A DNA stretch of 64,000 nucleotides from Agelas oroides (taxonomy: Eukaryota; Porifera; Demospongiae; Agelasida; Agelasidae), in NCBI GenBank assembly GCA_949130485.1, contig OX422185.1, forward strand, positions 3,332,304-3,396,303, given 5' to 3'. The notes beneath the pieces were generated by a model, which saw only the letters and a list, made by a program, of their open reading frames with translations, made no database searches and was not told where the DNA came from. The position numbers and the translations under genes were made by a program. This document shows, in pieces, positions 7,044 through 63,540 of the stretch (position 1 is its first letter; each line of letters starts with the position of its first letter).

Positions 7044-7232
7044 TAAAACTTTTTTGTGTGTAGCATTTTTTATATGATCCAAGAGCTTCACATAACACCA
7101 TACATGTACATTTTGAGCTGAGTAGGTTGAATGTTGAGTTCGTTCTTCAACCAGTCAGACATAAGCGCTTAAGCCACTTTACTGCAAATACTTTTTTTTA
7201 ACAGTCACGAATATTTCATTACTGTTCTCTAG

Positions 7233-9190
7233 AAATGAATTTCAACCAGGAGAAGGTGATAGAGATCATCAGCAAGGAAAGTATTCGAGGCAATTTTCTG
7301 GTGTTGGGTGTTACAGGTCTCCCAAAGTCGGGTAAAAGTGGTCTTGTTAATGCTCTGCTTGGTGAGGGAGCAGCCAACACTCGGGTTCATTCCAGCTTGA
7401 TGGGAGACTGTCACTTCTACAGAATGGCATTGTTGAAATATCCTACTGATGAGAGTCTAGTTTGTTGTCCAGTGGACCTAACTGATATTCACACCGTTAG
7501 TATCTCACTTAGTCTCGCTCGAGTAGCAGCCCTTGCCAACAAAGAACCACATGTTGAGAGGTCACAGAGCAGTCAGCCTTATTTTGATGAAAAGCTTCTC
7601 AATGACACTTTCACTAAGATGTTTGCAGACATCCACAAAACCATGGCTAAATTTCCAGTTGGATCTGCTGCCCTCTGCAGTGGCTCTGTCACCTTTGTCA
7701 ACATCTGGAAGCTTGGACCTAATAAAGCTTTTCTTGAGGTACTGCAACGCCTTGGAAGAGAGCTCAAAAAGCTCTTACTAGTCAATGTTCTCAACCTCAA
7801 AAGAGATGCTGATCACATGGGTAACCCTCCAGAATTGGTAGAGCATAAGGTAGACAAAACGTTCATGAAGAGAAGGCCTCGAGTTGACTATTCTACAAGA
7901 ATAGCTGGTATTCCAGCAAGCATGGCCCTTGTTGAGAAACAGCCAAGGACTTTGTACGCTCTGACACATGCAGATAAATTTGACAATGAGAAAGAACGAA
8001 AAGAAGCTGTAGAGAAAGTCAGAAATGCTGTTCATAATAGTGCAACTGAAGCCGGCATATCAGAAGCTATTCACCCCCAAATGTTGCCAATCAATACCAA
8101 AAGTGAAGAAGATGTCAAATTGTTGGAAAAAGCCATTGAAGAAATGGTTGAAAAGCAAGGAAGGTTTGTTTATGACATGCCTCTAAAGTGGTTGTTCTTC
8201 CGTGCTGCCCTATCACATTATGCAAAGGAAAAGAAAACTTTCTATATCACACGAGACAAGTTTGATGAAATTGCTCACGAGTGTTGGATTAAGACAGAAG
8301 ATGAAATTGAAAAGTTTATACAGGTTTATCGAGAAGGTTGCAGCCTACTCAGCTCTCCTGATATTCCAGTTCTCCACTCCAATATCATCATTAAACCGGT
8401 CCAATTTCTCCATGGTTTTGAAAAGCTTTACTACACTGACGCATTATTTCCACCAGGTAGAAATAACGTAGCACCATCAGAGAGTATCAGAGAGCATGCA
8501 AGAGAAAGCTTCAAGAAAGGTATCTTATGCAACAACCTAGCAAGAAAGCTGTGGGAAAATGACACCAACCTTTACCTTGAAGTGCTTGAATACAGTGGAT
8601 TCATGACTAGCCTCAACAGTTACAAAGAATGCTGTCCTGTCTGTAATGATCCAACCTGCTTCTTTGCACCTACACTGCGATCTGAGATGTGGGAGGAAGA
8701 ACCATCTCCTGACTCCCTCTTCATCACTTGCAGCACCGATTACATCGCACTGCAGCTACAATCACAATATGTGAAGCATATGCCGGACTACTTCCCACAA
8801 GTACAGCTCAAGAAAGTCCCCTACCACAATGCAATCTCTTTTGTCCACAATTATGAGCAAAAAATGATCACCATCGATGTTATTTTTCACAACGATGCAG
8901 TTGAAATCCGAGTGAGTCCTCATGTTAAAAACAGACTAATGATTGGTGAAATTCATAGCAAGCTGAAATCACTCAGTGTCGAGATCTTTGACCGAGTCTC
9001 AGTCAAAATGCCAGAAATGAGATTTGATTTGGCTGTCGCTTGTCCAAATTCAGAATCCGCGCCAAATCGTACTCACTTCATGCCATTCCACATTTGTGCA
9101 GTGTGTGTAGACCAATTAATCTGTACAGTCTGCAAGTCAGAAATGCCAGTCAGTCCAGAAAAAAAGCTTTGGATTAATGCTGCATATTTG
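7233..9190 (+). CDS. Gene A, Roc-COR GTPase exon
   Basis: A single 652-codon exon is bounded by acceptor ctctag and donor gtaagt. Near the N-terminus a P-loop is intact (GLPKSGKSG, about residues 29-37 of the exon). A THAD motif (LYALTHADKFD) fits the base-specifying G4 position. The usual switch-II DxxG is not recognisable: at the expected place the sequence reads NIWKLGPNK. A COR-like region follows (begins MPLKWLFFRAAL, continues with FYITRDKFDEIAHEC, and has SNIIIKPVQFLHGF). Roc-COR tandems are dimerising GTPase modules known from LRRK, DAPK1 and MASL proteins. No LRR or kinase is present. The last third has Cys-rich pairs (CCPVCNDPTC; CAVCVDQLICTVC) that could bind metal. Gene B carries the paralogous exon at 41164-43082, ending at the equivalent place. 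Confidence 0.82.
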
Positions 9191-9349
9191 GTAAGTATAA
9201 ACAATTTAGATAAAATATGAATATGACCATGTGGAAGTGTTGATTTTGTACATAATCACATACTTATGGCTTTTCTAGACCCTTACATGTACTTTTCAAC
9301 CTACCAACAAACCAACCTAGAGTCCATCCTGTCTGTTTATTCCTTGTAG

Positions 9350-38000: not shown

Positions 38001-38401
38001 GTCTTGCTGAGGGTCTGGGAACGAGACTATAGAGGGTGGTAGCACATGGCAGCTTTGTGTCTTGGCTATAGAAATCCCTTGGTCAATGTTGGTTGGAGCA
38101 TTTTCCTCTTTTTGCTTAGAAAACACCCAGATATTTTTCAGTCTGGATTACGATTTGACTGTTGAGAGCTCAGGTGTTGTTAGAGGCATAAGATTGTTGC
38201 AAGTTCACTTTTTGTAAAGCTTAAAGAGAGAAATAGCAAGAAAATAAGAAACTTTCTTTTTTTAAGGAAAGCATTAGCTAAACGTGACCTGGATAAGAAA
38301 TAGGTTTATACCACCAAAAGTTGGCTGTCACAGACACAGAACACATCCTGCACATCCCATTTCAAATTTGTTGACTTTTGTTTTTCTTTTCTCCAGCAAA
38401 A

Positions 38402-38867
38402 ATGGGGATTGATCTTGACCTTTGGAGGGCACGCATTGGCCTCTTCAATGCATCTCGAACTCCTCGCTTGCATTCGATGGTGAACTTGGTGAATGTCCGT
38501 GTTGGCATATCCTTGCTAACTGCACTGTGTGGAGCGGTGCTTACAGTCTTCATACCATACTCTCTACTCACACATATCCTTTGTGCTTCCCAGCTGCCAC
38601 ATATTGCTTCCATACATGCTGTGTACACACTGCACCCACTTTACGTTTTGAGTTCGTTCGCATCCCTCGCCCCAGTCCTGCGTTTGATGTCTTGTCTTCT
38701 TGTCACAGTTGGAGTAATAACTGTTTCACATTCTTCAGGACACACACTCTCCATCTCTGGGTATAAAATCTCACAAAAAATGATCATCATCTTGCTACTG
38801 AGCTATTCTTTGGCACACCTACTTATTCTCGCAGGAGATGTTGAAACCAATCCTGGCCCTGAACGAG
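38402..38867 (+). CDS. Gene B, leader exon ending in a 2A-like ribosome-skipping sequence
   Basis: The exon encodes 155 residues from ATG 38402 (MGIDLDLWRARIGLFN) and ends in phase 1 at a gtaagc donor. Three hydrophobic stretches are visible at about residues 34-62, 80-108 and 127-144. Directly after the last comes AGDVETNPGP (residues 144-153), which matches the 2A consensus D(V/I)ExNPGP in full. At such sequences the ribosome skips the Gly-Pro bond, releasing the upstream chain and continuing from the Pro. The next exon in phase is the Roc-COR exon at 41164, so skipping would release a membrane-targeted leader and a Roc-COR protein beginning P-E-R-V. 2A-like sequences are known in some marine invertebrate NLR genes and in non-LTR retrotransposons. 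No endonuclease or RT follows here, so a host gene is favoured. Confidence 0.78.
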
Positions 38868-39487
38868 GTAAGCTCCTATAAATTAACTTTAGTTAGCTAT
38901 GTTAGACAGATCAGCATCCTTATGGTGTCGGTAGCTGGAGACAGTACACACTATCAGATCACTTAGTTTCTCACTAGTAGCATGACTTCTGCTTATACTA
39001 GTGGCTATTTTGGAAAAAATTGTCTGCAATTAGGATTAGGGTTGATCTCTGCTTGAAGATGGGTGACAAAGTGTACCCAAAACATTGCTCTCAATGAGCA
39101 TAGTTTGTCAGCCATGTGAAATCCAAAGTATAACATCAGCTGCTGTTGAATTCGAAGCTAGACTTGGTTGCTCCCAGACCCCTGACCAATCCCCACTTGG
39201 ATCACTTACTGCATGTTATACTGAAAGCAATATACACACTGGATGACAAGGTCGGGGAAACAAATTACTGTTGAGATGTACCTCTCAGTGTTCATTTTTG
39301 AAGCTAGTGTATATAGTTATATAAATGGCTGCATGATGTGAAAGTGCAACATGGAATACTTGTTGAATGAGAGAAACATGAAAATCCAGCTGGGACTCAA
39401 GCACACTTCTGAATATTACTGGTCACTTGATTCAGCGCTAAGAAAGAACACTAGTTATTTCTGTTTGGCATGTTTTCAACTTTGTAC

Positions 39488-39684
39488 ATCTTAGCACAAT
39501 CTTAGCACAATCTTAGCACAATCTTAGCACCATCTTAGCACCATCTTAGCACCATCTTAGCACAATCTTAGCACCATCTTAGCACCATCTTAGCACCATC
39601 TTAGCACCATCTTAGCACCATCTTAGCACCATCTTAGCACCATCTTAGTACATCTTAGCACCATCTTAGCACCTCTTAGCACCT
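39488..39684. repeat. Minisatellite, 11-bp unit
   Basis: About 17 tandem copies of cttagcaccat or cttagcacaat. It is a direct repeat without spacers, so not a CRISPR array. Confidence 0.95.
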
Positions 39685-40109
39685 CAATGAGTTGGAATTC
39701 AGCTGAAAACTCTATGCAATGTGCAGTACATGTAGATCATCTTCTGCTCTCATGTTAGTGGTTCCAGTTGCTTATACGGTAAGGACTTAGAGCAAACAGG
39801 AATGTCTTTGGTATGTGAACCCCAGCTGGATCAATTGAACCTTATTGGAATGGTGACTCATACATGCACAATGTTACCTATTGAATTTGACTATGTAGCT
39901 GTAACTCTATCTTATGGCTTTGTACTTAGTGCATTGTGTGCATACTATAAGCCTTAAAAGCTGAATGTAACTCGAAGTATGTCATGTAAGTAAACTGGAT
40001 GCATGTACATGTACATCGTTGATGATTACAACCACTCATGGACCTGTGTACAAGCTATGAATGGTTGTGGATTCTTGTGGAAGAAAGAAGATGCAGTACT
40101 GTTTAATTC

Positions 40110-40155
40110 TAGCCTCATTCCCAGGCTAGACTCCCCAGGCCCAGGAATGAGGCTA
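40110..40155. mobile_element. 46-bp TAGCCTCA hairpin
   Basis: tagcctcattcccagg and cctggaatgaggcta-type arms (one mismatch) with almost no loop. The flanks gtttaattc and atttatttc agree at seven of nine positions, as expected of an old 9-bp duplication. Confidence 0.6.
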
Positions 40156-40475
40156 ATTTATTTCAGTATCACTTTTGTTTGTGAATAATTGTATCGTCAC
40201 TTCCAGGATATATTTTAAGTTGTGCCTGAATTTACAATTTACAATTGTTGCAGATTGTGTATTGTTGAGTGTTTTGTGTACAGTTCATTGATTACATATG
40301 TATGGATATCTGATAGATGAATATGATGTAACTGTTCTTTGTGATCAAATTACATTGTCATTTGAGCAATGATTCCTTTTCATGGTGTATATACCTTTGG
40401 GTAAGCCAACACCTATTGGGCAGTAATACCTATTGGCTGCACTATATATGGAAAAGGCAGGCTTAGCAGTTCTAT

Positions 40476-40736
40476 CAAGAGCGCATAAGAACGGGCGGCT
40501 AGAGTAAGAGCGTGTAACTACGTAAAATTCGAAACCGGGCGGAATTTTCCGCCAGTACTAAAAATAGTAACACGTGCTGCGCACGCTGCGTTGACATAAG
40601 CTATTATGCAGGGTTGCTAAGCACGCACGTGACCGGGTGTTCTATTTTTAGTACGGTTCAATAATTTTGCTCGGACTACGGGCTTCTATTAGAGTTACAC
40701 GCTCTTACTCTAGCCGCCCGTTCTTATGCGCTCTTG
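40476..40736. mobile_element. Long inverted-repeat element (CAAGAGCGC ends)
   Basis: The arms begin caagagcgcataagaacggg and run for more than 40 bases, with a second inverted pair inside around the phrase ctatttttagtac. An unrelated short element at 53786-53912 shares the aagagcgcat end. Confidence 0.7.
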
Positions 40737-40746
40737 GTACTATACA

Positions 40747-41066
40747 TAGTCTCGTGCCCAGACCCCACCCAGCTCACGCGAGGAGAAGGGGTCTGGTGTC
40801 ACAAGTCCAAATCCTTGGGCTAGCTCCAGAAACTTGGAGCGGCCAATCAAATCACAGAGCGGTATTTATTGGAATAATGTGGAAGCGAGAGCAAGTACTT
40901 CAATCATACCGCTCAAAGCGTGTTATGAGATTCATTATCCAACACTGAGCAATTTGTAATTCTACACTACCAATTACAAGGCTTCAACACTTCCGCTAGC
41001 CCAAGGATTCAGGCTTGTGACACCAGACCCTTTCCTCGTGAGAGGTTGGGTCTGGGCACGAGACTA
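40747..41066. mobile_element. TAGTCTCG-type Mutator-like element
   Basis: The ends are tagtctcgtgcccagaccc and its complement. The flanks tactataca (40738-40746) and tgctataca (41067-41075) agree at eight of nine positions. It lies about 100 bases upstream of the gene B Roc-COR exon acceptor. Confidence 0.78.
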
Positions 41067-41163
41067 TGCTATACAGGTCAGGAAGGATTGTGTTAGTTCA
41101 ATGAATCACACGCACCTTAACATGTGACAACTAAAGTTCGATAGTAAAGTGCTTTTGTACTAG

Positions 41164-43082
41164 TGACTCGTTTCAGCACCACACTGCCATACACCTCTGT
41201 AGGAGCAGGAGGTGAACATCTCTCATCCATCTTCCATGCACTAAAATATGGCACATCTGCTCCACTGAGAATGCTTCCACTGCTTGTGGCCGGGGTTCCT
41301 GGTGCAGGAATCACAACACTACTGAAACATTTGTTTCCGAAAATAACCTTCGCAAGAAAAAGTCGTGCTACTCGTAGTTTACAAGCTGTACTAACTGAGA
41401 AAGGCTGTTTCGAACTAGATCAAGCTGTGGTGGTTTTGCAACAGGTCTTCGATGGTGTAAAGGCTAAGAAAGCATTGAAAGGCTTGAAAGAAGTTGAGCT
41501 AGTCTCTAGTAAGGATTTGGCACTAGCTGAGCATACTCATCAAAGTATGTTACCACCTGGTTTCAAGGGCCCGATGGATTTCTTCAAGGATGTACACTGC
41601 AGTGATGTTGAAGGCTATTTTGCTGATAAATGGTGTACTGTGTACCTCACAGATATGGGAGGCCAGCATAACTTTGATACAATACTTCCAGCTTTTGTAA
41701 CAATGCCTTCAGTATTTCTGTTAGTCACAAATCTGAATGAAGATCTGGCATGTAAGCATGGTAGTGCTGCTACTCATTTTGGTCTCACTCCTCAAGAAGT
41801 GATAGTGCAGTCTCTTTCAAGCATTGACTGTGTTATCCATTCACTACCACATGGTATCAAGCCCAAGGTCGTACTAGTTGGCACTCACATGGACTTAATT
41901 TCTGAAAAGCAGTTTACCAATGTTGATGATCTCCTTCAAGCTTTGATTAGAAACACAGAAGTTGAAAGCTTGGTTCATTTTGCCTCTCCAACTCAGATGC
42001 TTTTTCCCGTAAGTAATCTCTCAGTTGAAGACCCGGGAATTCTGCATTTGCAGGCAGCACTCAAACATTTTGCACTAGACAGTGAAGAGTTCCAGGTAAC
42101 TGTGCTCCTGAAATGGCTAATCTTTAATGCTGTAATCCAACAAACCAACAAACCCGTATGGACATATGAACAATGCTTCCAAGTAGCAGAGACATGTGGT
42201 ATAGATACATACAGTGAGTTTGACGACGCTCTGCAGTTTTTGCATACAAGGGTGGGCATGTTGAGATACTTCCCCATGATCAAGGAACAGCGCAACATTG
42301 TTATTATCAAGCCAGACTATCTGTTTGAAGTCTTGTCTAATTTGGTCACTGCAAATTTCACCGAGAAAAAGGAAGACCAGATTGCTCTCAGAGAATTCAA
42401 AAAGACAGGCCTACTTGCGATGGAATTTTACCAAACTGCTTCCAAACACTCTAATGAGCTCCTGACAGCTTCAAAGCTGTTTCCACTACTTGAATATCAT
42501 CACACTGCTGTACGATGTGGTCAAACCACGTTCTTCATACCATGCATTCTTTCCTCTTCTCCATATGACCACTCTGCTTCATTTCACTCAAGTGATATTG
42601 CTCCACTCCTGATACACTTTGATTGTGGTTACTGTCCAGTAGGCTTGTTCTCCTCACTAGTTGTACACCTGGCTGAAAACAAACCTGGTTCCAAGTTGCA
42701 GTGGAATTTGATTACTGGAACAATGTTTCGAGATCAGATAAGTCTCCATCTTGAACCTTGTCACAGTACCGTGAGATTGACAAAATTCCTAGCTTACTAC
42801 AGTGTGGAACTTCTTTCTACTGATGTTACTGCTTGCAAAATGTCTCTGGGAGAACTTTGTGTAGAAGTCCGACGATGCATGGAAAATGGACTCAAAGTTT
42901 CAACGAACTATACAATGTACAATTTCGAACTTGCACTGCTCTGTCCAGATCCTGAATCCAAGTTGCATCCACACCCCAGTGTCATCAAATTTCATCAGGG
43001 CCAACAGCCTCATGTAAAATGTGTCAAGACTGGGAAATTTTGGAAAATTCCTCTCAAATCGACCATTTGGTTTGAATACCAA
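41164..43082 (+). CDS. Gene B, Roc-COR GTPase exon
   Basis: This is a single exon of about 640 codons. Acceptor tactag and the phase-1 start fit the donor at 38867, giving NPGPER then VTRFSTTLP; donor gtgtgt at 43083 is phase 0. The P-loop is degenerate: GVPGAGITT has Ile where the nucleotide-binding Lys should be. Switch II is intact as LTDMGGQHNF, and G4 reads VGTHMD. A COR domain follows: TVLLKWLIFNAVI, TYEQCFQVAETCGID, then IVIIKPDYLFEVLSNLV. The C-terminal third matches the end of the gene A exon, including the final aromatic stretch (STIWFEYQ against KLWINAAYL). There is no LRR or kinase. The defective Walker A Lys suggests weak or no GTP hydrolysis, which is inference. Without the 2A exon the first in-frame ATG would be near 41268, after the start of the domain. 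Confidence 0.85.
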
Positions 43083-43420
43083 GTGTGTGATAATGTTTGT
43101 GCATGCTGTTTGTATAGTTAATGTAATAGGGTAGTGGAAAGCCTTCACACATATAGCTGATACCACTTGGAGTCATATGTCTAGGGGGAGGAATTGCATA
43201 GTGCATTATCGACCTAATGGACAGAGCCCAGCATACACAGCCTAGTGGAGCCGAGCATACATGGCCTTAATAGGTAACTGTTTTAGTTTTGTGCATGCTA
43301 TTCTGCATTTGTGTGCATGTACCTATGCAACAGGGTGGTTGTATATGGAAGCCTGATTGAGATCACTGTATTGCTATAGTGAAATGTATTAATATGCGCA
43401 AGAATGTGTTCTTTTGACAG

Positions 43421-43463: not shown

Positions 43464-46400
43464 GTATGTAGCTGTATAACATATCCTTTTTTCCAACATT
43501 TGTATTATGTCTACACAGTACATGTGAGTCATTTTGCAGCTTCTGCATACAAAAATGCAACTGGGCAGACTATGTTCTAATGATTGAGAGAGCCATGATG
43601 GGTCTTGGTGGATTATGCACCGAACAACTATTTTGTGACATCTATGCTCTGCCTGTGTGCAAGCTAGTTGAACTGTTGGCTACAAATGTGCTATGAGAGA
43701 TGGCCTTAACTGATATTTGTATGGCCAGGGTAGTCTATAATTATTGATGAAATGGACTGGTGTGACTGCAATTTTCTATTACAAAAAGGTTTTTACTCGC
43801 ATCTGCATGAGAGAATTAGTATTTGTAATCTTGATTGTACCACATTTCTTCACAAAGGGCCATCTTCAGAATACCTTCTTGAATGCACAATAAGACTTGT
43901 TCAATGTATACTCAGTTACATGATCACAGGAAGATCACAGCCTGACTTATTTTGGCTAAGCAAATAACTAAATGACATTGCCACAGCAAAACGATTATGG
44001 GTTATGACTGTCATCTATATTGATGTGCTTACTGGACAACTAGTGGTAGGCACCATATATATACTCAAGAATTTACTTTGCAAACAAAGTGTAGACACTT
44101 TGCCGCAAACGTTCTCTATAGGATGGCTAGCACACAAGGGCATGTGGAAACGTGGCTGTGTCAAGTTGTAAACCCTGGGTACAAAGTTGAAGCCAAACCT
44201 CCACCATTGCTATGACATCATCTCTGAGATTTTGCAGGCATTAGCTACATCTAGTTATTTTCTCTCAGTCCTGAGCAACTAATAGTAAATGTAAGTCTTA
44301 TTCTGAGAGTTTCTGTTTGTAGCTAGCTGCTGCAACATCCAAATAATTTCAGGGTGTCTCTAATCACTGGAATGGAATATGGAATGGAACGGTGGAATGG
44401 AATATGGAATGGACGGTGAATGTACACAGAACAGCTAAATCATGTAACTGACGCACTGCTCAGTCTAGGCTGAGCTATACCTACTACAGCTTGGGCTCTT
44501 ACCTCACTGCAGAGGCTTTATGAGCAAGTCCTTGCTGACATATTTTTATTTCTGCCTCGTCTGGTACGTATGCTTTTTTGAACAATACATGTTGTTGTAA
44601 ATAATAGTGCTGTATGTATATCCATAACAATGCAAGCAACCGAAGAAGCCTCAAAATGACACCTTGTAGATAGTTTGAAGAAAGTATGAACAATTCACAG
44701 ATTCAACAACTTCATGAATGCTAACAAGCTACCAAAAGTGAAGCTTGTAGACCATGATGCAATGCCCTTTCATACCCCTTTGTGGCAACTGTAATGCATA
44801 ATGATCTCTAAATAAAAGCATGGATGGACATTGACTTTCTCATCACATTTGATGACTGCGGTAACGTGTGCATTTCTCATTTCCTCGTTCAATTCCCACG
44901 AAATAGCGTGACGTCATATGCGTTAGCTAGCCAATGAAATGTCCCTACGTCCTAAGTATGTAAAATTCAAAATGAAGATTGCTGACTGCACAAAGATGGT
45001 AGCCTATAAAGACACAAAAATGGTCAATAATTGCTAGCATAGTGTGTTTACTCCCGGCGACACCAGGAGGCCAGGAAGCGGCAGACCGAGTAAGTTGATT
45101 GTGACGTTGATGTGTAGCCTGTTCCAATCATATTCACGGAAAAGTCGCGGATACTATTCGGTCCGCTCGCGAATCTAACGTACTGTGTACTGGCAGGAAC
45201 AGCAAGAGTACTGATAGCTTTACCCGTGTATTAATAATCAACGTGACAATTAGTGCCGCCTAAGATTCTAATGAAGCTGTTTTACGCAGGCATCTCCAAC
45301 TGGCGGCTCTCGCCGGGGGAGCAGCGACGTCGTTGGGCGCGCGCGAGGACGCTGTAATAAGACCGAACAAACTTATTTTCACTTATTTTCACGTTCGAAA
45401 AAAAAGTCCGTAAAAATTAAAGTGCGCATGGACGGCGAAATCTCTTTGCGATTTCACTAGGCCGATATTTTAACATTGCGTGAACTTAATTTTCTTAGTC
45501 CTAGGAGTAGACACAGGCCCAGAGACAATAGTATAACGACATTCATATAATACAAAAATGACATAGCTTAATTTACTTGTATTATGAGTCAGAGGGTATT
45601 ATGGGTCCACATATAACTTGTAACTACTAAAATTTCCAAACTCGATGTCCATTTAGGGTGCATGTAGGTGCCATTATCTACCAAATTTCCCATCAAAATG
45701 TGTTTGCTATGTAGTATTTTTCAAGGTTTGATGATTGTTAGGGTGCCACATTATGAACCCTGAACAGTGTATGTTAACATTAATACCATGGTAGAATGGA
45801 AGGTGCTCTAGTGAAGAAAAATGGCTGTCTGAACAAAGACAGGTTGTACAATGCTAGAATACAGTTTGAACTCCAACTGAAAATGTTTCAATCAGCAAAG
45901 CACCTGGTGACTCATAATACCAGCAGTCGACTCATAATACCTTCAAGAGTGATTTACATAGGTTCTTTCTGTTACAACCACTGCTTACAGGGGAAAATAT
46001 CAATTTTATTTTATAAGCCGTACGTTCTCTGGAGAAATGTTTCAATCTTTTAGATGCGACTGAAAAATACACTACACTAATGAGCAGTAATTCAGCTTAG
46101 GTGGCTCATAATACTAGCATCTACCTTAATACGTATACATGGAACTTATGTTGTATACATTTTGTACATGCAGCAGTTTGTTTTCCTTATGATATCCTCT
46201 GCTTCGTCTAGTTTGAAACTTCTACGGCACAGCCTCTCTATACAGCGGCAAGCATTTAACTCTGAGGGCCTGGAATCTATGTAACTGACATGGCTGTGGT
46301 TTGGACAGCTTAACCCAGCTATGACAATTGGCATGTTAGCTAGCTCATTGTTGGTGTAGTTTTCTTTGGACCAGTGAGATTTTAGCTTATTTTCTGAATT

Positions 46401-46529
46401 GTTTATTGTCATTAATGACTGCATTGACCAAGCAGTCATATTCAATTACATATGAGGTTTTTTGTTTCTTGAATTGTGTGAAAGCAAAAAGTAAACTTGT
46501 TGATAATAATGTATTTCTGTTTCGTGCAG
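43464..46529. other. Intron of gene B
   Basis: About 3 kb without a supported exon. There is a short GGAATGGAATAT tandem stretch at 44370-44415 and a CpG-richer block at 44870-45400. Frames 43752-43967 and 45796-46053 show no domain. Confidence 0.5.
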
Positions 46530-46906
46530 TGACCCAGCTTCCCCCACAAGGAGTTTCTGTGTTGAAACCTCCAGTTGAGAAACCAGCTCTACAAGAACTG
46601 GCCGTAATTCCCCTAGAAGAATCACAATGGTACATACTAGGACAAGCCCTTGGCCTCGAAGAGGATCTTCTGAAGTCCATCCAGCATGGATATTCCAATC
46701 CAACCAAGTGCAAGAGAGAGATGTTCAAGAATTGGCTGAAAGAAAAAGATACAAAAGTTTCGTGGCATGTTTTGCTTGGAGCCTTGAGGAAAATTGGAGC
46801 AACTGATGTGGCAGACGTGGTACGAAGTGAGTATGGTATTTCGGATAGCAGTGATTCTGAGGAGGTATCAGGTGGTGAGGATGAAGTGGATGCGGGATTC
46901 AGTGAG
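46530..46906 (+). CDS. Gene B, death-domain exon
   Basis: The exon enters in phase 1 after gtgcag and leaves in phase 0 at gtgtgt. It encodes about 126 residues. A Pro-rich lead (VTQLPPQGVSVLKPPVEKP) is followed by a death domain: EESQWYILGQALGLEEDLL, CKREMFKNWLKE, VSWHVLLGALRKIGATDVADVV. It ends with an acidic Ser/Glu/Asp tail (DSSDSEEVSGGEDEVD) that may be phosphorylated. The closest sequence in the window is the orphan exon at 16904-17241. It is expected to recruit other death-fold proteins in the cytosol. Confidence 0.82.
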
Positions 46907-47069
46907 GTGTGTTTAAACTTGTACGCTCAATCTGCCTAGCATGTGATTATGCATGTGACTAACATATTAGTACCTAAGTAGGCATTTACATTGTGCAGTT
47001 ACTACATGCAAATAACCCATGATACATAATTGCATGTAAAATTATATTAGTTGAGATGTGATCTTACAG

Positions 47070-47484: not shown

Positions 47485-48660
47485 GATGTGGACATTACTA
47501 AGCCAAAGATGGGATCCATCTCACATTCAGAGAAACATCGTGAACTTCCGAAACCTCCAGAGTACATGGCATTTGAAGCGTGTTACAATCAACTCATGTC
47601 CCTAGTCAGTGAGCAAGCCAATGATTGTGCAAGAAGAGCATTTTCAAGGGCACTGATTGACACTTCAAAATTGGATCATATCGGATCATCTTTGGTCACA
47701 GATGAAGTGAAAGCAGCTGAATTGCTGAGAGAAATAGGACAAATGATTCGTACCTCCGTCCCGCAAGCTTTTGAGCGGTTTCTACTAATTCTAACCACAG
47801 ACCCAGAAACTCCAGTAGTGCAACGACTAAAAAGGATGACAAATGTTTACAAAGTGGTCACTGAATTTCAGAAATTGTCTGCCGGTGAAATCAACTTGGA
47901 TGCCTTAGCGGAGGAATTCCTCAACAAAGGATTGATCACACCATCTAGCTATGAGGAATGCATTCAAACAGACGAGAGTCTGCCAAAGGCGATGATTTTG
48001 TGCAAGCAACTTTCAAAGCTGAGAGCAAGTCATCCATTTGTGAAACTATTGGCAGCTTACCCAAACACAAAAGATGTAGCTGAGGCACTAAAACGAGAAT
48101 CTGGCACTTCGTCTCCCAGTTCTGAGGATAGTTCTGGCTACCTCACTGGTCGAACGGAGGACCTGGAGAGCAGCCTTGGATCAACGTCATCGGGGGAAAA
48201 CCAAAGACCGATTGAAGACACTAAACCCTGGGAGTCAGGATTTAGTTCTGGCTACCTAACTGGTCAAATGGAAGAACTAGACAGTAGAATTGACCTGGAG
48301 AGCAGCCTTGGATCAACATCATCGGGGGAAAACCAAAGACCGATTGAAGACACTAAACCCTGGGAGTCAGGATTTAGTTCTGGCTACCTAACTGGTCAAA
48401 TGGAAGAACTAGACAGTAGAATTGAATCAAGGAACGACCAAACACTGACCAAAGATGCCATTCTCGATGCGTCAATGTACCCTTCTCTTGAATCAAGCAC
48501 TTCTTCTGACCAATTCCACTCATTGGACAGTCAAAATGGCACTATGGTCTTGGGTACGTTGAAAGAACACTTATCAGAAAGCACCCTACCCAGCTTGGAG
48601 TGTCAGAGTAGCACTGTAACTCCCTTCACAGATACATCTACGCCAAAAGTAAGCCATTGA
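47485..48660 (+). CDS. Gene B, CARD-like helical exon with internal repeats
   Basis: The exon starts in phase 0 after gttgtag. Residues ~27-115 (FEACYNQLMSLVSEQANDC to RFLLILTTDP) look like a six-helix CARD-type fold, and ~125-210 form a second related helical block (LDALAEEFLNKGLITPSSYE, FVKLLAAYPNTKDVAEALKR). A Ser/Gly-rich tail carries SSGYLTG three times within a 44-residue repeat that is present twice plus a partial copy. The exon either ends at a gtaagc donor after 48648 (phase 0) and joins the ankyrin exons, or is the last exon with TGA at 48658-48660. CARD calls rest on helix pattern only; the second block could equally be another death-fold. Confidence 0.65.
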   Translation, partial: DVDITKPKMGSISHSEKHRELPKPPEYMAFEACYNQLMSLVSEQANDCARRAFSRALIDTSKLDHIGSSLVTDEVKAAELLREIGQMIRTSVPQAFERFLLILTTDPETPVVQRLKRMTNVYKVVTEFQKLSAGEINLDALAEEFLNKGLITPSSYEECIQTDESLPKAMILCKQLSKLRASHPFVKLLAAYPNTKDVAEALKRESGTSSPSSEDSSGYLTGRTEDLESSLGSTSSGENQRPIEDTKPWESGFSSGYLTGQMEELDSRIDLESSLGSTSSGENQRPIEDTKPWESGFSSGYLTGQMEELDSRIESRNDQTLTKDAILDASMYPSLESSTSSDQFHSLDSQNGTMVLGTLKEHLSESTLPSLECQSSTVTPFTDTSTPKVSH

Positions 48661-60668: not shown

Positions 60669-61751
60669 TTAATTCTTGGACAAACATCGAGAAACGCTTG
60701 CTAACTGTTCGCGAGGAATACGGATGTATCTCAGGTATGCGGTGCTCTCCCACCGGCCAAGAGTTTGAATTAGTGAGTCTTCCAGGCCACATGCTGCTGC
60801 AGTTGTTGCGGCACCAATCCTAAAACTGTGCCCTGAATAGTGGGCCGGATTTATGCCAGATTGCTGCAGAGCTGTTCTCACATGCTCCACGAATCGCTGA
60901 CGTGTGAGGAAGCGGCCGTCTTTGAAACGGAACAGAGGACCGGAACCTTGCTGGCCTTGGGCAGCCAGGTATGCAAGGAGCGCTGCAATTGGGCAGATAT
61001 CATTGTAGGTTCTACCAAGGAATATAGAAACCCCCTTTCTAAATGGATCAGTCTTTGAGGCCTTTATTGACACTCTGACAAGAGTGGGGTTGGCTGGGTT
61101 GTCTATAGCTATGTCATCCATTGCCAAGTTGACTGAGGGGTCAAAGCCTCTGTCAGACTGAACTGTCATCTCTCCTGCTCTTAAAAAGCCATAAAAACAA
61201 AGACAGCATGCTGCCCACAGCATTACATAGTCTGGATCAGCAGCCTTTCTATCCCATGTACTTTTTATCTTGCGTAAGATCGATGGAGTAATTGGGAGGC
61301 GAGGACGTGACTTTACTCCCAGAGCAGCTTGGTAGCGTTTAACACCTTTTAGGACCAGCTCCAATTTAACCAGTGATTGCTGGTTAAAAGGGTCAAAACA
61401 ATTTTTCTCTATTTGTAAGTGGCGGACCGCTGAGAGGTAGCTTTTTATTGTCTGGTGTTTTAAGCCTTGCAGAGCTAAATATGCAGCAAAGATGCAGAGA
61501 GTCGATTCAGCAGCAGGAAAAGGTGTCAGGTTAGCCTCCTGGCAAAAGGTAATAAATCTGTTCTTCCCAGAGTTATACGACCGCTGCGTAGATTGAGCTA
61601 GGCCTTGGGAGAAAAAGAATTGAACAAGCTGACCCAGTTCATTGATGTCCAGTCTGGTCTTGTGTATACCAGAACCTCCAACAGTTGGGGAGGGATTGTG
61701 GTGGGTTGAGGCTCTGCATCTGGGACCTTTGCAAGAAAGAGAGGTAGACAA
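60669..61751 (-). CDS. Tyrosine recombinase of the Ngaro-like element
   Basis: 360 residues. The catalytic set is visible: Arg in FLRAGEMT, Lys in IKASKTD, HSFR in the GHSFRIGAATTAA motif and a Tyr nucleophile in GRWESTAYLRYIR. An N-terminal SAM-like core-binding region precedes it (STQRSYNSGKNRFITFC; TIKSYLSAVRHLQ). It replaces the DDE integrase of LTR elements and would join circular cDNA into the genome by strand exchange. Its reading frame overlaps the 3' end of the RT frame by about 150 bases in another frame, so translation may need a frameshift or re-initiation; the first Met may not be the real start. No stops or shifts mark it as broken. Confidence 0.92.
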   Translation of the reverse strand: MSTSLSCKGPRCRASTHHNPSPTVGGSGIHKTRLDINELGQLVQFFFSQGLAQSTQRSYNSGKNRFITFCQEANLTPFPAAESTLCIFAAYLALQGLKHQTIKSYLSAVRHLQIEKNCFDPFNQQSLVKLELVLKGVKRYQAALGVKSRPRLPITPSILRKIKSTWDRKAADPDYVMLWAACCLCFYGFLRAGEMTVQSDRGFDPSVNLAMDDIAIDNPANPTLVRVSIKASKTDPFRKGVSIFLGRTYNDICPIAALLAYLAAQGQQGSGPLFRFKDGRFLTRQRFVEHVRTALQQSGINPAHYSGHSFRIGAATTAAACGLEDSLIQTLGRWESTAYLRYIRIPREQLASVSRCLSKN

Positions 61752-63367
61752 TTACGTGATAGTGCATCTGCTGCAACATTAAGACTGCCAGGAATGTGGC
61801 GTGCAAATATATCGAAATCAAAATGTGCTGCAATGAAGAACAAGCATCTTAGCAAGTGCATTGCTGTTTCGTGTTTACAGTAGCCAGCATTAATAAGAGC
61901 AACTACAGCCGCATTGTCACAGTGGCAGAGCACAGTACAGCCTCCCCATGCTTTGCCCCAGATTGCTGCTGCAATGACAATTGGGAGAAGCTCCTTTGCG
62001 AGTATGTCTACTGTTTTCCAAGACGTGTGCCAGGAGCATTGGAACCATTTTTGCTGCCAGAATGCACCACAGCCCCAACTCCCCGATGCATCACTAGTTA
62101 TGGTAATATCTGGAACGTCTCTTTTAGCTGCCCGTAGGAGGCTTACACCATTCCATGCCTCAAGGAATGTGCACCACCATGTGAGATCCGATCGAAATTC
62201 TCTGCCCAAGCGAATATGGTGGTATGGTTTCTTTCCAATTGTAGAGGTCTGTATCATACGGCGCAGAAAGGTGCGGCCTGGTGTAACCACTGAAGAAGCA
62301 TGCTGGAGGTCCCCGATTAAAGACAACAACTCTCGTTTAGTGCAGCTTTTCCGGCCTTGCCAAGTGTGGATTGAGCTACGTAGACGTGAAAGTTTCTCTG
62401 CTGGCAGTCTAGCTTCCATAGCAACAGTGTCAAGCTCGATCCCCAGAAAAACAAGGCGTGTAGTGGGGCCTACAATTTTAGAAGGAGCCAGTGGGACACC
62501 TAGGAGTGAGCACAGGTCCTTGCACTGACTCAAACCTTGACTGCATCCATCTGACAAGGGCGGGCCAATGATAAGAAAATCGTCTAAGTAGTGGATCACA
62601 AAGGGTACGCCTCTTTTCTTAAGCATCCATTCAATGGAATCTGCCAGGCAGTTGAAGATTTTAGGAGCAGAACGCAGGCCGAACGGAAGGGTAGTATCGA
62701 TGAACAACTGCTCACGCCACTTCATGCCAAGAAGAAGCCTGTCCTCAGGATGCACTGGGACAATTCGGAATGCGCTTTTTACATCAACTTTCGCTAAAAG
62801 TGCACCTTTCCCAAGGCGGGCAATTTCTGAAATGGCATCCCTCACTGAAGGGTAGGTAAGAGAGCACAAAGCAGGGTCTACTCCATCATTTACACTGCAG
62901 CCTTCAGGAGATGAAAGGTCTAAAATCATGCGCCACTCATTTTGTGCATGCTTCTTTGGTATGACTCCGAAGCGGCTAATGTGGACCCCTGAGAGGATAG
63001 AGGGGTTAAGAGGACCCAGTATGCGGCCTAACGAGCATTCTTTGACTAGGTACTCATCAATAACTAGGGGGTTCTCTTTTGCAGACTTCATATTGGACTT
63101 GGCTGATTGACACTCCCTAGGGTAATTGAAGCCAATCCTGAAGCCTTGAGATATGCCTTGTAGCAGATACTGTGCAAACCCCTTGTCAGGGTGGTTTTCT
63201 AGCTCTCGAGCCCATGCAGCAATATTGAGCGGTGTAGTAATAGATGTGAGGAAGGGTGGTAGAGATGGGGGATGCTGCTGTTTGCAGTTAGCCAGAGCAA
63301 GCAGATCTAGCCTGTACCGGTAGGCTGCAAGATAATAATGGAAGGGAGGGATGTGGGGAGCAAGCAT
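61598..63367 (-). CDS. Reverse transcriptase-RNase H of the Ngaro-like element
   Basis: 589 residues. RT motifs in order: SRFGVIPKK, WRMILDLSSPEG, ALLAKVDVKSAFRIVPVHPE, LPFGLRSAPKIF, and the YLDDF catalytic box (about residue 265). RNase H follows with SDASGSWGCGAFW, AKELLPIV, CDNAAVVALIN and HIPGSLNVAADALSR, covering the acidic and His positions. No chromodomain or integrase follows. It copies element RNA and removes the template strand. It lies about 170 bases after gag and overlaps the recombinase frame at its end. The frame is intact, so the element may still be active. Confidence 0.93.
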   Translation of the reverse strand: MLAPHIPPFHYYLAAYRYRLDLLALANCKQQHPPSLPPFLTSITTPLNIAAWARELENHPDKGFAQYLLQGISQGFRIGFNYPRECQSAKSNMKSAKENPLVIDEYLVKECSLGRILGPLNPSILSGVHISRFGVIPKKHAQNEWRMILDLSSPEGCSVNDGVDPALCSLTYPSVRDAISEIARLGKGALLAKVDVKSAFRIVPVHPEDRLLLGMKWREQLFIDTTLPFGLRSAPKIFNCLADSIEWMLKKRGVPFVIHYLDDFLIIGPPLSDGCSQGLSQCKDLCSLLGVPLAPSKIVGPTTRLVFLGIELDTVAMEARLPAEKLSRLRSSIHTWQGRKSCTKRELLSLIGDLQHASSVVTPGRTFLRRMIQTSTIGKKPYHHIRLGREFRSDLTWWCTFLEAWNGVSLLRAAKRDVPDITITSDASGSWGCGAFWQQKWFQCSWHTSWKTVDILAKELLPIVIAAAIWGKAWGGCTVLCHCDNAAVVALINAGYCKHETAMHLLRCLFFIAAHFDFDIFARHIPGSLNVAADALSRNCLPLFLAKVPDAEPQPTTIPPQLLEVLVYTRPDWTSMNWVSLFNSFSPKA

Positions 63368-63540
63368 TGATTATTGAACTGTGTTAACAATGAGATGATA
63401 TGCCTAGATATAATTTTATATGCAACAAGAGCAGCACATATGGTAATACAGATGAAGATGAGCAATGCGGGGTGTGCTATTTATACATGTACTTTTTGCT
63501 AAAATTAACACATACAGTATCTGAGCAGTAGCGCCCCTAG

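Follow-up and report, generated by a model that had tools for sequence, protein, structure and literature searches.

The genome of the sponge Agelas oroides contains, within a 64,000-nucleotide stretch of contig OX422185.1 (assembly GCA_949130485.1, positions 3,332,304 to 3,396,303; the whole stretch is called the window below), an open frame that ends in a 2A-like ribosome-skipping sequence and is followed on the same strand by a Roc-COR frame. The question raised by this locus is whether the 2A leader belongs to the Roc-COR gene, to a mobile element, or to some other transcript. Our preferred answer, to which we would give about three chances in four, is that a cellular gene of immune type has here a portable first-coding exon, with its own ATG, a multi-pass leader, a leucine-rich 2A (StopGo) sequence, and a phase-1 splice donor.

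The leader exon and its 2A sequence

The leader frame runs open from its ATG (start MGIDLDLWRARIGLF...) to its end at LLLSYSLAHLLILAGDVETNPGPER / LILAGDVETNPGP, with no stop before the 2A. The core, DVETNPGP, conforms to the consensus (D/G/C/N)(V/I)ExNPGP, and its upstream context, HLLILAG-D, is leucine-rich with (A/S/C)G before the aspartate; the whole has the form of a 2A-like signal sequence, i.e., a hydrophobic N-terminal leader ending in 2A. Unspliced, the genomic frame closes a few codons past the 2A (...NPGPERGKLL, then a stop). At the other end, a 3' splice-site-like tract stops just short of the ATG, and the leader thus looks like a complete internal exon comprising ATG, leader, and 2A (coordinates are collected in Table 1). 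Of 21 other leaders inspected by eye, 11 (L004, L005, L011, L042, L044, L051, L055, L070, L075, L077, and L085) have a comparable tract ahead of the ATG; in the other 10 it is not clearly present. Most sampled gene leaders are ~120-165 amino acids long and usually have one or two hydrophobic segments; the window leader has three.

A sequence-only reading of this DNA had described a leader with three hydrophobic segments, ending in the 2A consensus, whose exon joins the Roc-COR exon in phase. These observations were confirmed, including the end of the exon at 38867 and the phase of the join. The skip point does lie close to the junction, as had been stated, but is separated from it by three residues (Pro-Glu-Arg) plus one base rather than by two residues. 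The accompanying interpretation, that one mRNA could give a membrane leader and a separate Roc-COR protein, is partly supported.

Abundance of the 2A core in the genome

The 259.3-Mb genome was searched at the DNA level for D(V/I)ExNPGP, with reversed patterns as controls. There were 179 DVExNPGP and 104 DIExNPGP matches, 283 overall, versus a chance expectation, calculated from window base composition, of ~0.11 and ~0.12, respectively (~0.23 in total); the reversed patterns gave no match in the whole genome. A chance motif was rejected on these numbers. G(V/I)ExNPGP forms also gave no match genome-wide, with a pattern that did not include the Val codon GTG. The site-based counts that follow rest on the matches listed, which are 277 of the 283 (100/102, 77/77, and 100/104). 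Where the surrounding DNA was read, at 56 sites, position 11 (p11) was Gly in all 56, and p10 was Ala, Ser, or Cys in 54, the two others being one Thr and one stop; the search pattern had demanded neither residue. These are the residues of the L-rich (A/S/C)G-D context that has been described for viral StopGo sequences, and linked to their activity, in PMC12846837.

Leader families and donor phase

When the sampled leaders of more than 45 amino acids were compared by BLASTP with the 2A end stripped, gene families fam1 (MGID..WRARIG), fam2 (NGPDEWRARIG), fam3 (..YIYHHCQLGHV..), and fam4 emerged, and the mobile-element groups were separate from them. The genome search for the same leader elsewhere, which the sequence-only reading had proposed, was made with head patterns that specify only the leader start and require no 2A. 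MGIDxxxWR (fam1) matched 79 times and NGPDEWRAR (fam2) 30 times; neither reversed pattern matched. A listed 2A core lies on the same strand within 1.5 kb downstream of 73 of the 79 fam1 heads, 68 of them in frame, and 29 of the 30 fam2 heads have a core, 27 in frame. These 102 heads account for 100 distinct sites among the 277 listed, because a single 2A serves three fam1 heads near C3:678 kb. The commonest fam1 head-to-2A distance is 375 nucleotides (nt), and that of the window leader is 435 nt. The earlier suggestion that exon shuffling could place a leader of this kind on many proteins is supported.

Kinship of the window leader is confined to the 14-residue head and the 2A end, and a near-identical repeat family was rejected as a description of it. 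The pooled ratio of nonsynonymous to synonymous change (dN/dS), with the core excluded, was 0.39 for fam1 (n = 12), 0.31 for fam2 (n = 3), and 0.56 for fam3 (n = 8); by these ratios, the leaders of the three families are under constraint. N-myristoylation of MGID heads was considered and dropped, as the window leader does not fit the pattern.

The best donor past the Pro codon was scored, using generic weights, at 55 of the sites read, of which 43 were non-mobile (window included) and 12 mobile. A donor scoring above 2 was present at 26 of the 43 non-mobile sites; all 26 were in phase 1, and 25 lay 4-16 nt past the start of the Pro codon. Taking the best donor of any score, 39 of the 43 were in phase 1, whereas the 12 mobile copies were distributed as 3, 3, and 6 over phases 0, 1, and 2. 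Such uniformity of donor phase and position among the non-mobile sites agrees with a shuffled exon of 1-phase type.

What the leaders precede

A downstream Death exon was sought in DNA that extended 0.9-1.5 kb for most sites, including 43 non-mobile ones (window excluded, L087 included). It was found at 23 of these 43, six of the 23 having supplied the queries, versus none of the 12 mobile sites. Longer stretches had the order leader-Death-ankyrin at L042, leader-Death-NACHT-LRR at L044, leader-Death-Roc-COR at L043 and L086, leader-Roc-COR at L085 as in the window, and leader-immunoglobulin (Ig) at L087. By their strand and order, the frames downstream would form one gene with the leader. L087 belongs to the Roc-COR/Death neighbourhood of the window, ~157 kb away from the start of the latter.

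The sequence-only reading had named 2A-like sequences on some marine invertebrate NLRs, which holds for the sea urchin (PMC4981915), and none leading a Roc-COR protein. On the latter point the window is not unique, because at L043, L085, and L086, too, a Roc-COR frame is preceded by a 2A leader. The domain calls at these loci differ in strength. The Death matches in L042, L043, and L086 are under the Pfam cut-off (18-19 bits versus 22.6). The Roc match of L043 is likewise below its cut-off, and the Roc-COR call there rests on profile comparison (99.9%); the L085 frame matched no Pfam family, and its call rests on profile comparison with the paralogues of the window protein (99.5%). At L086, Roc is above the Pfam cut-off and COR-A slightly below.

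Association was also assessed from the domain side, with scores for 105 of 314 NACHT candidates, 150 of 870 Death candidates, and 132 COR-A loci. Within 10 kb, a same-strand 2A lies upstream of 12 of the 105 NACHT and six of the 132 COR-A loci, versus none for either on the opposite strand and one and two, respectively, downstream on the same strand. The corresponding Death counts (150 scored) are 15 upstream, one opposite, and one downstream. The 2A sequences are thus oriented toward immune domains. Among the six COR-A loci, two (by L042 and L044) have ankyrin or NACHT-LRR frames between the 2A and COR-A, and at two (by L043 and L085) the COR-A lies in an additional Roc-COR frame, more distant than the one that follows the leader. 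A long tandem array of Roc-COR genes at C20:6346271-6705259 has no listed 2A leaders. The window itself holds a second Roc-COR-like frame at 7202-9220 (+), with a COR-A match of 17.4 bits, under the cut-off, and no listed 2A ahead of it within the window.

The join and the downstream protein

The Roc-COR frame begins ~2.3 kb downstream of the leader. Joins from 38867 to 41164, 41203, 41206, 41209, and 41212 are all open, giving 791-807 residues with no internal stop; because all five are open, the frame of the join is robust, and the exact acceptor is one of five candidates. A short tandem repeat with a unit, by eye, of ~11 nt (tcttagcacca) occupies 39493-39685 in the predicted intron 3' of the leader.

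No Pfam Roc match was obtained in the window Roc-COR frame, and its COR-A match barely exceeds the cut-off. An AlphaFold model made with 17 paralogues was weak (mean predicted local distance difference test score, pLDDT, 52.9); a Foldseek search with this low-confidence model returned 16 matches at E <= 0.001, and all 16 were Roco/LRRK proteins. The Roc-COR alignment profile found no match among Protein Data Bank (PDB) sequences. G3- and G4-like motifs are present, but the P-loop GxxxxGK(S/T) is not: the corresponding residues at 41292-41315 are GVPGAGIT, with Lys changed to Ile. By the marginal COR-A match and the 16 Foldseek matches of the low-confidence model, the frame has the Roc-then-COR order of Roco proteins. 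The P-loop of L085, GKTGSGRS, has Arg at the Lys position, and both Roco proteins may possibly be altered in GTP binding. The Death domain farther downstream is probably part of the same gene as Roc-COR, given its strand and nearness. NACHT-LRR does not form the body of the window gene, which is Roc-COR, probably with Death; it does follow the leader in L044. Between the Death-domain frame and the right end of the window, an open reading frame (ORF) at 47485-48660 (+) contains near-identical repeats around SGYLTGQMEELDSRIDLESSLGSTSSGENQRPIEDTKPWESGF and matches no Pfam family.

Table 1. Features of the leader, its join and the downstream frames (window positions, except where a contig is named)
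Feature	Position	Strand	Remarks
3' splice-site-like tract (pyrimidines + CAG), tttgtttttcttttctccag	38377..38396	+	ends 5 bases 5' of ATG
Leader exon	38397..38867	+	5 nt non-coding, ATG 38402, phase-1 end; from open frame and splice signals
Leader head MGIDLDLWRARIGL, common to fam1 leaders	38402..38443	+	86% identity over 14 amino acids to several fam1 leaders, 2A end stripped, E ~4e-4
Hydrophobic segment 1, residues 29-57	38486..38572	+	Kyte-Doolittle, window 19
Hydrophobic segment 2, residues 82-101	38645..38704	+	Kyte-Doolittle
Hydrophobic segment 3, residues 125-147, continuing into 2A	38774..38842	+	Kyte-Doolittle
2A core G-DVETNPG/P	38834..38860	+	DVETNPGP 38837-38860; Gly p11 at 38834
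Predicted skip bond Gly-Pro	between 38857 and 38858	+	
Splice donor GT, GAG/GTAAGC, phase 1	38868..38869	+	score 6.0; 10 nt past Pro codon start
Candidate in-frame acceptor AG	41162..41163	+	exon from 41164; alternative in-frame exon starts 41203, 41206, 41209, 41212
Roc-COR exon	41164..43121	+	ORF 41148-43121; splicing may end the exon ahead of the stop
COR-A domain	42114..42470	+	PF16095, 35.4 bits versus cut-off 35.3
Death domain	46613..46828	+	PF00531, 5.5e-10, in ORF 46340-46939
Short 2A leader upstream of Ig frame (L087)	C3:3488250-3491250		PF13927, 9.3e-12

Mobile elements and other explanations

One rival reading assigns the leader to a mobile element, either a 2A-bearing long interspersed nuclear element (LINE) or a PHD/DUF6570 element, and such copies do exist here. 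Judged by eye, 12 of 40 spread-sampled sites (L045-L084) were of mobile type, a sample that over-represents lone sites because few were taken per cluster. Pfam searches on 10 of the 12 found a PHD finger after the 2A in nine, an endonuclease domain in two (L045 and L048), and DUF6570 in L046; longer stretches at the L046 and L053 sites (L089 and L090) contain open 2A-PHD-DUF6570 frames belonging to two mobile groups. DUF6570 is a domain that we take to be one of Helitron-type proteins, and these two elements are probably of a transposon type other than LINE. The presence of 2A in non-LTR (long terminal repeat) elements is also described in PMC4981915 and PMC12846837. For the window leader this origin is nevertheless very improbable. 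The sequence-only reading had named an endonuclease or reverse transcriptase frame joined to the leader as the sign of a retrotransposon, and none follows the window 2A in frame: the frame closes, the donor follows, and the next frame is Roc-COR. Mobile copies lack both a consistent post-2A donor and a Death exon, BLASTP keeps their leaders of more than 45 amino acids apart from those of genes, and none of the sampled fam1 and fam2 loci holds a full element joining the head to an endonuclease or reverse transcriptase. A retrotransposon frame was accordingly rejected for this leader. Elsewhere in the window, at 60669-63370 (-), an RVT_1 reverse transcriptase adjoins a tyrosine-recombinase-like frame, the pair resembling a DIRS-like element.

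If the 2A were weak or inactive, the exon would merely add a membrane anchor and the product would be a membrane-bound Roc-COR/Death protein. The three hydrophobic segments and the strong divergence of the window leader between head and 2A are compatible with this, as are the transmembrane domains reported in sponge NLR architectures (PMC12909245). However, the core is intact and sits in a Leu-rich context with (A/S/C)G, to which PMC12846837 ties activity, and an exact core follows 73 of the 79 fam1 heads while the remaining leader varies; we consider a simple anchor unlikely. Rather unlikely, too, is a leader exon that serves another transcript or a solo micro-protein gene, with Roc-COR translated from its own Met 36 (~41271). 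The join is, after all, predicted from the DNA, and this Met lies just before the P-loop; but the two frames share a strand, are 2.3 kb apart, and offer several in-phase acceptors, 2A leaders stand ahead of Roc-COR frames at three further loci, and the strong donor would be pointless with no downstream exon.

Several observations weigh against our preferred reading of a portable exon in an immune-type gene. No Death exon was present in the downstream DNA surveyed at 20 of the 43 non-mobile sites, and 17 of 43 lack a donor scoring above 2, L042 and L085 among them; at three of the 17 (L011, L049, and L058), the Death domain is in the same exon as the leader. No listed 2A accompanies six of the fam1 heads and one of the fam2 heads. 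The window leader fits fam1 over its first 14 residues, and the part from head to 2A aligns with no other leader; tblastn with the whole window leader (E <= 0.001) found only itself and one distant match (34%). Alongside the several in-frame acceptors there is one at 41177 that looks good but would break the frame, and translation of Roc-COR could start independently at Met 36 of its frame. The window Roc-COR protein, because its P-loop is without Lys, may not bind GTP normally. With the limit extended to 15 kb, same-strand 2A sequences lie upstream of 17 NACHT and nine COR-A loci versus two and six downstream, so the direction is weak for COR-A beyond 10 kb. Moreover, at 126 of the 132 COR-A loci, the C20 array included, the 10 kb upstream contain no listed 2A; with just six that do, a tie of 2A to Roc-COR genes in general was rejected. 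What the sequences show is the frame, the splice signals, conservation across the leader families, and the orientation toward immune domains; splicing, skipping, membrane insertion, and dual targeting are inferred from them.

Comparison with known systems

The principle of a 2A signal sequence on NLRs is already known from the sea urchin Strongylocentrotus purpuratus, where dual targeting by skipping was shown in reporters (Roulston et al. 2016, PMC4981915). The cytosolic Death/NACHT/LRR receptors there are likewise preceded by an N-terminal hydrophobic leader that has D(V/I)ExNPGP at its end. The sea urchin sequences given there are 26 amino acids long and on NLRs, whereas those described here are mostly ~120-165 amino acids and from another lineage, a sponge; in addition, a phase-1 donor usually follows the 2A directly, and the bodies include Death, ankyrin, Roc-COR, and Ig besides NACHT-LRR. 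The Leu-rich stretch and the (A/S/C)G before the Asp at p12 resemble viral StopGo motifs 2/6 (Li et al. 2026, PMC12846837), which occur in polyproteins, whereas here the motif would end a leader exon that is spliced. Sponge NLRs that carry transmembrane domains have been read as putative membrane-bound receptors (Koutsouveli et al. 2026, PMC12909245) and likewise have hydrophobic segments joined to NACHT-LRR/Death receptors; the relevant parts of that paper do not mention 2A peptides, and here a 2A ends the leader.

The mobile copies in this genome are followed by PHD or endonuclease domains and have no consistent adjacent donor, unlike the window leader. Odon et al. reportedly described 2A sequences in APE-type non-LTR retrotransposons in 2013; the core motif would be the same, and endonuclease-domain copies occur in this genome. 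A 2025 paper by Rao et al. (Cell Rep 44:115822), to judge by its title, surveys eukaryotic and viral 2As systematically. In a comparison that excludes this paper, no open-licence report was found of 2A leaders in a sponge or ahead of Roc-COR, ankyrin, or Ig proteins. What appears new is the form as an exon, the scale, the sponge host, and the bodies of Roc-COR, ankyrin, and Ig type.

Proposed mechanism and implications

For a portable leader exon, the following course of events can be proposed. In a single mRNA, the leader exon would be spliced to the Roc-COR exon, and the leader, translated first, would engage the membrane machinery. The ribosome tunnel holds the ~35-40 most recent residues; segments 1 and 2 should therefore be exposed, and membrane-competent, when the Gly codon is reached. 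Segment 3 could double as the exit-tunnel element of the 2A while the ribosome is at Gly-Pro. If the Gly-Pro bond is not made, the leader would be freed as a small membrane protein, and the ribosome would resume at Pro and make a separate, signal-less cytosolic Roc-COR/Death protein. Failed skipping would leave a membrane-tethered fusion, and because the unskipped fusion stays tethered, the skip rate would set the ratio of membrane to cytosolic product.

A broader proposition, which is a real possibility but which we advance tentatively, is that a whole layer of innate-immune genes in this sponge is fitted with interchangeable ATG-to-2A leader exons, each mRNA giving a fixed pair of a small membrane protein and a cytosolic Death-domain receptor of NACHT-LRR, ankyrin, or Roc-COR type. 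This one genome has 283 core sites, and two leader heads account for 100 of the 277 listed. Were the proposition true, 2A would be a common cellular device and not a rare one, and the published membrane-bound sponge NLRs would in part be unskipped polyproteins that exist on paper. The leaders offer a testable alternative reading of the transmembrane sponge NLRs of PMC12909245, and a warning that annotations of membrane-bound receptors may be joined products. If the leaders are functional, the exon form would explain how 2A spread, and 2A skipping would be a routine means of placing immune receptors in an early animal lineage.

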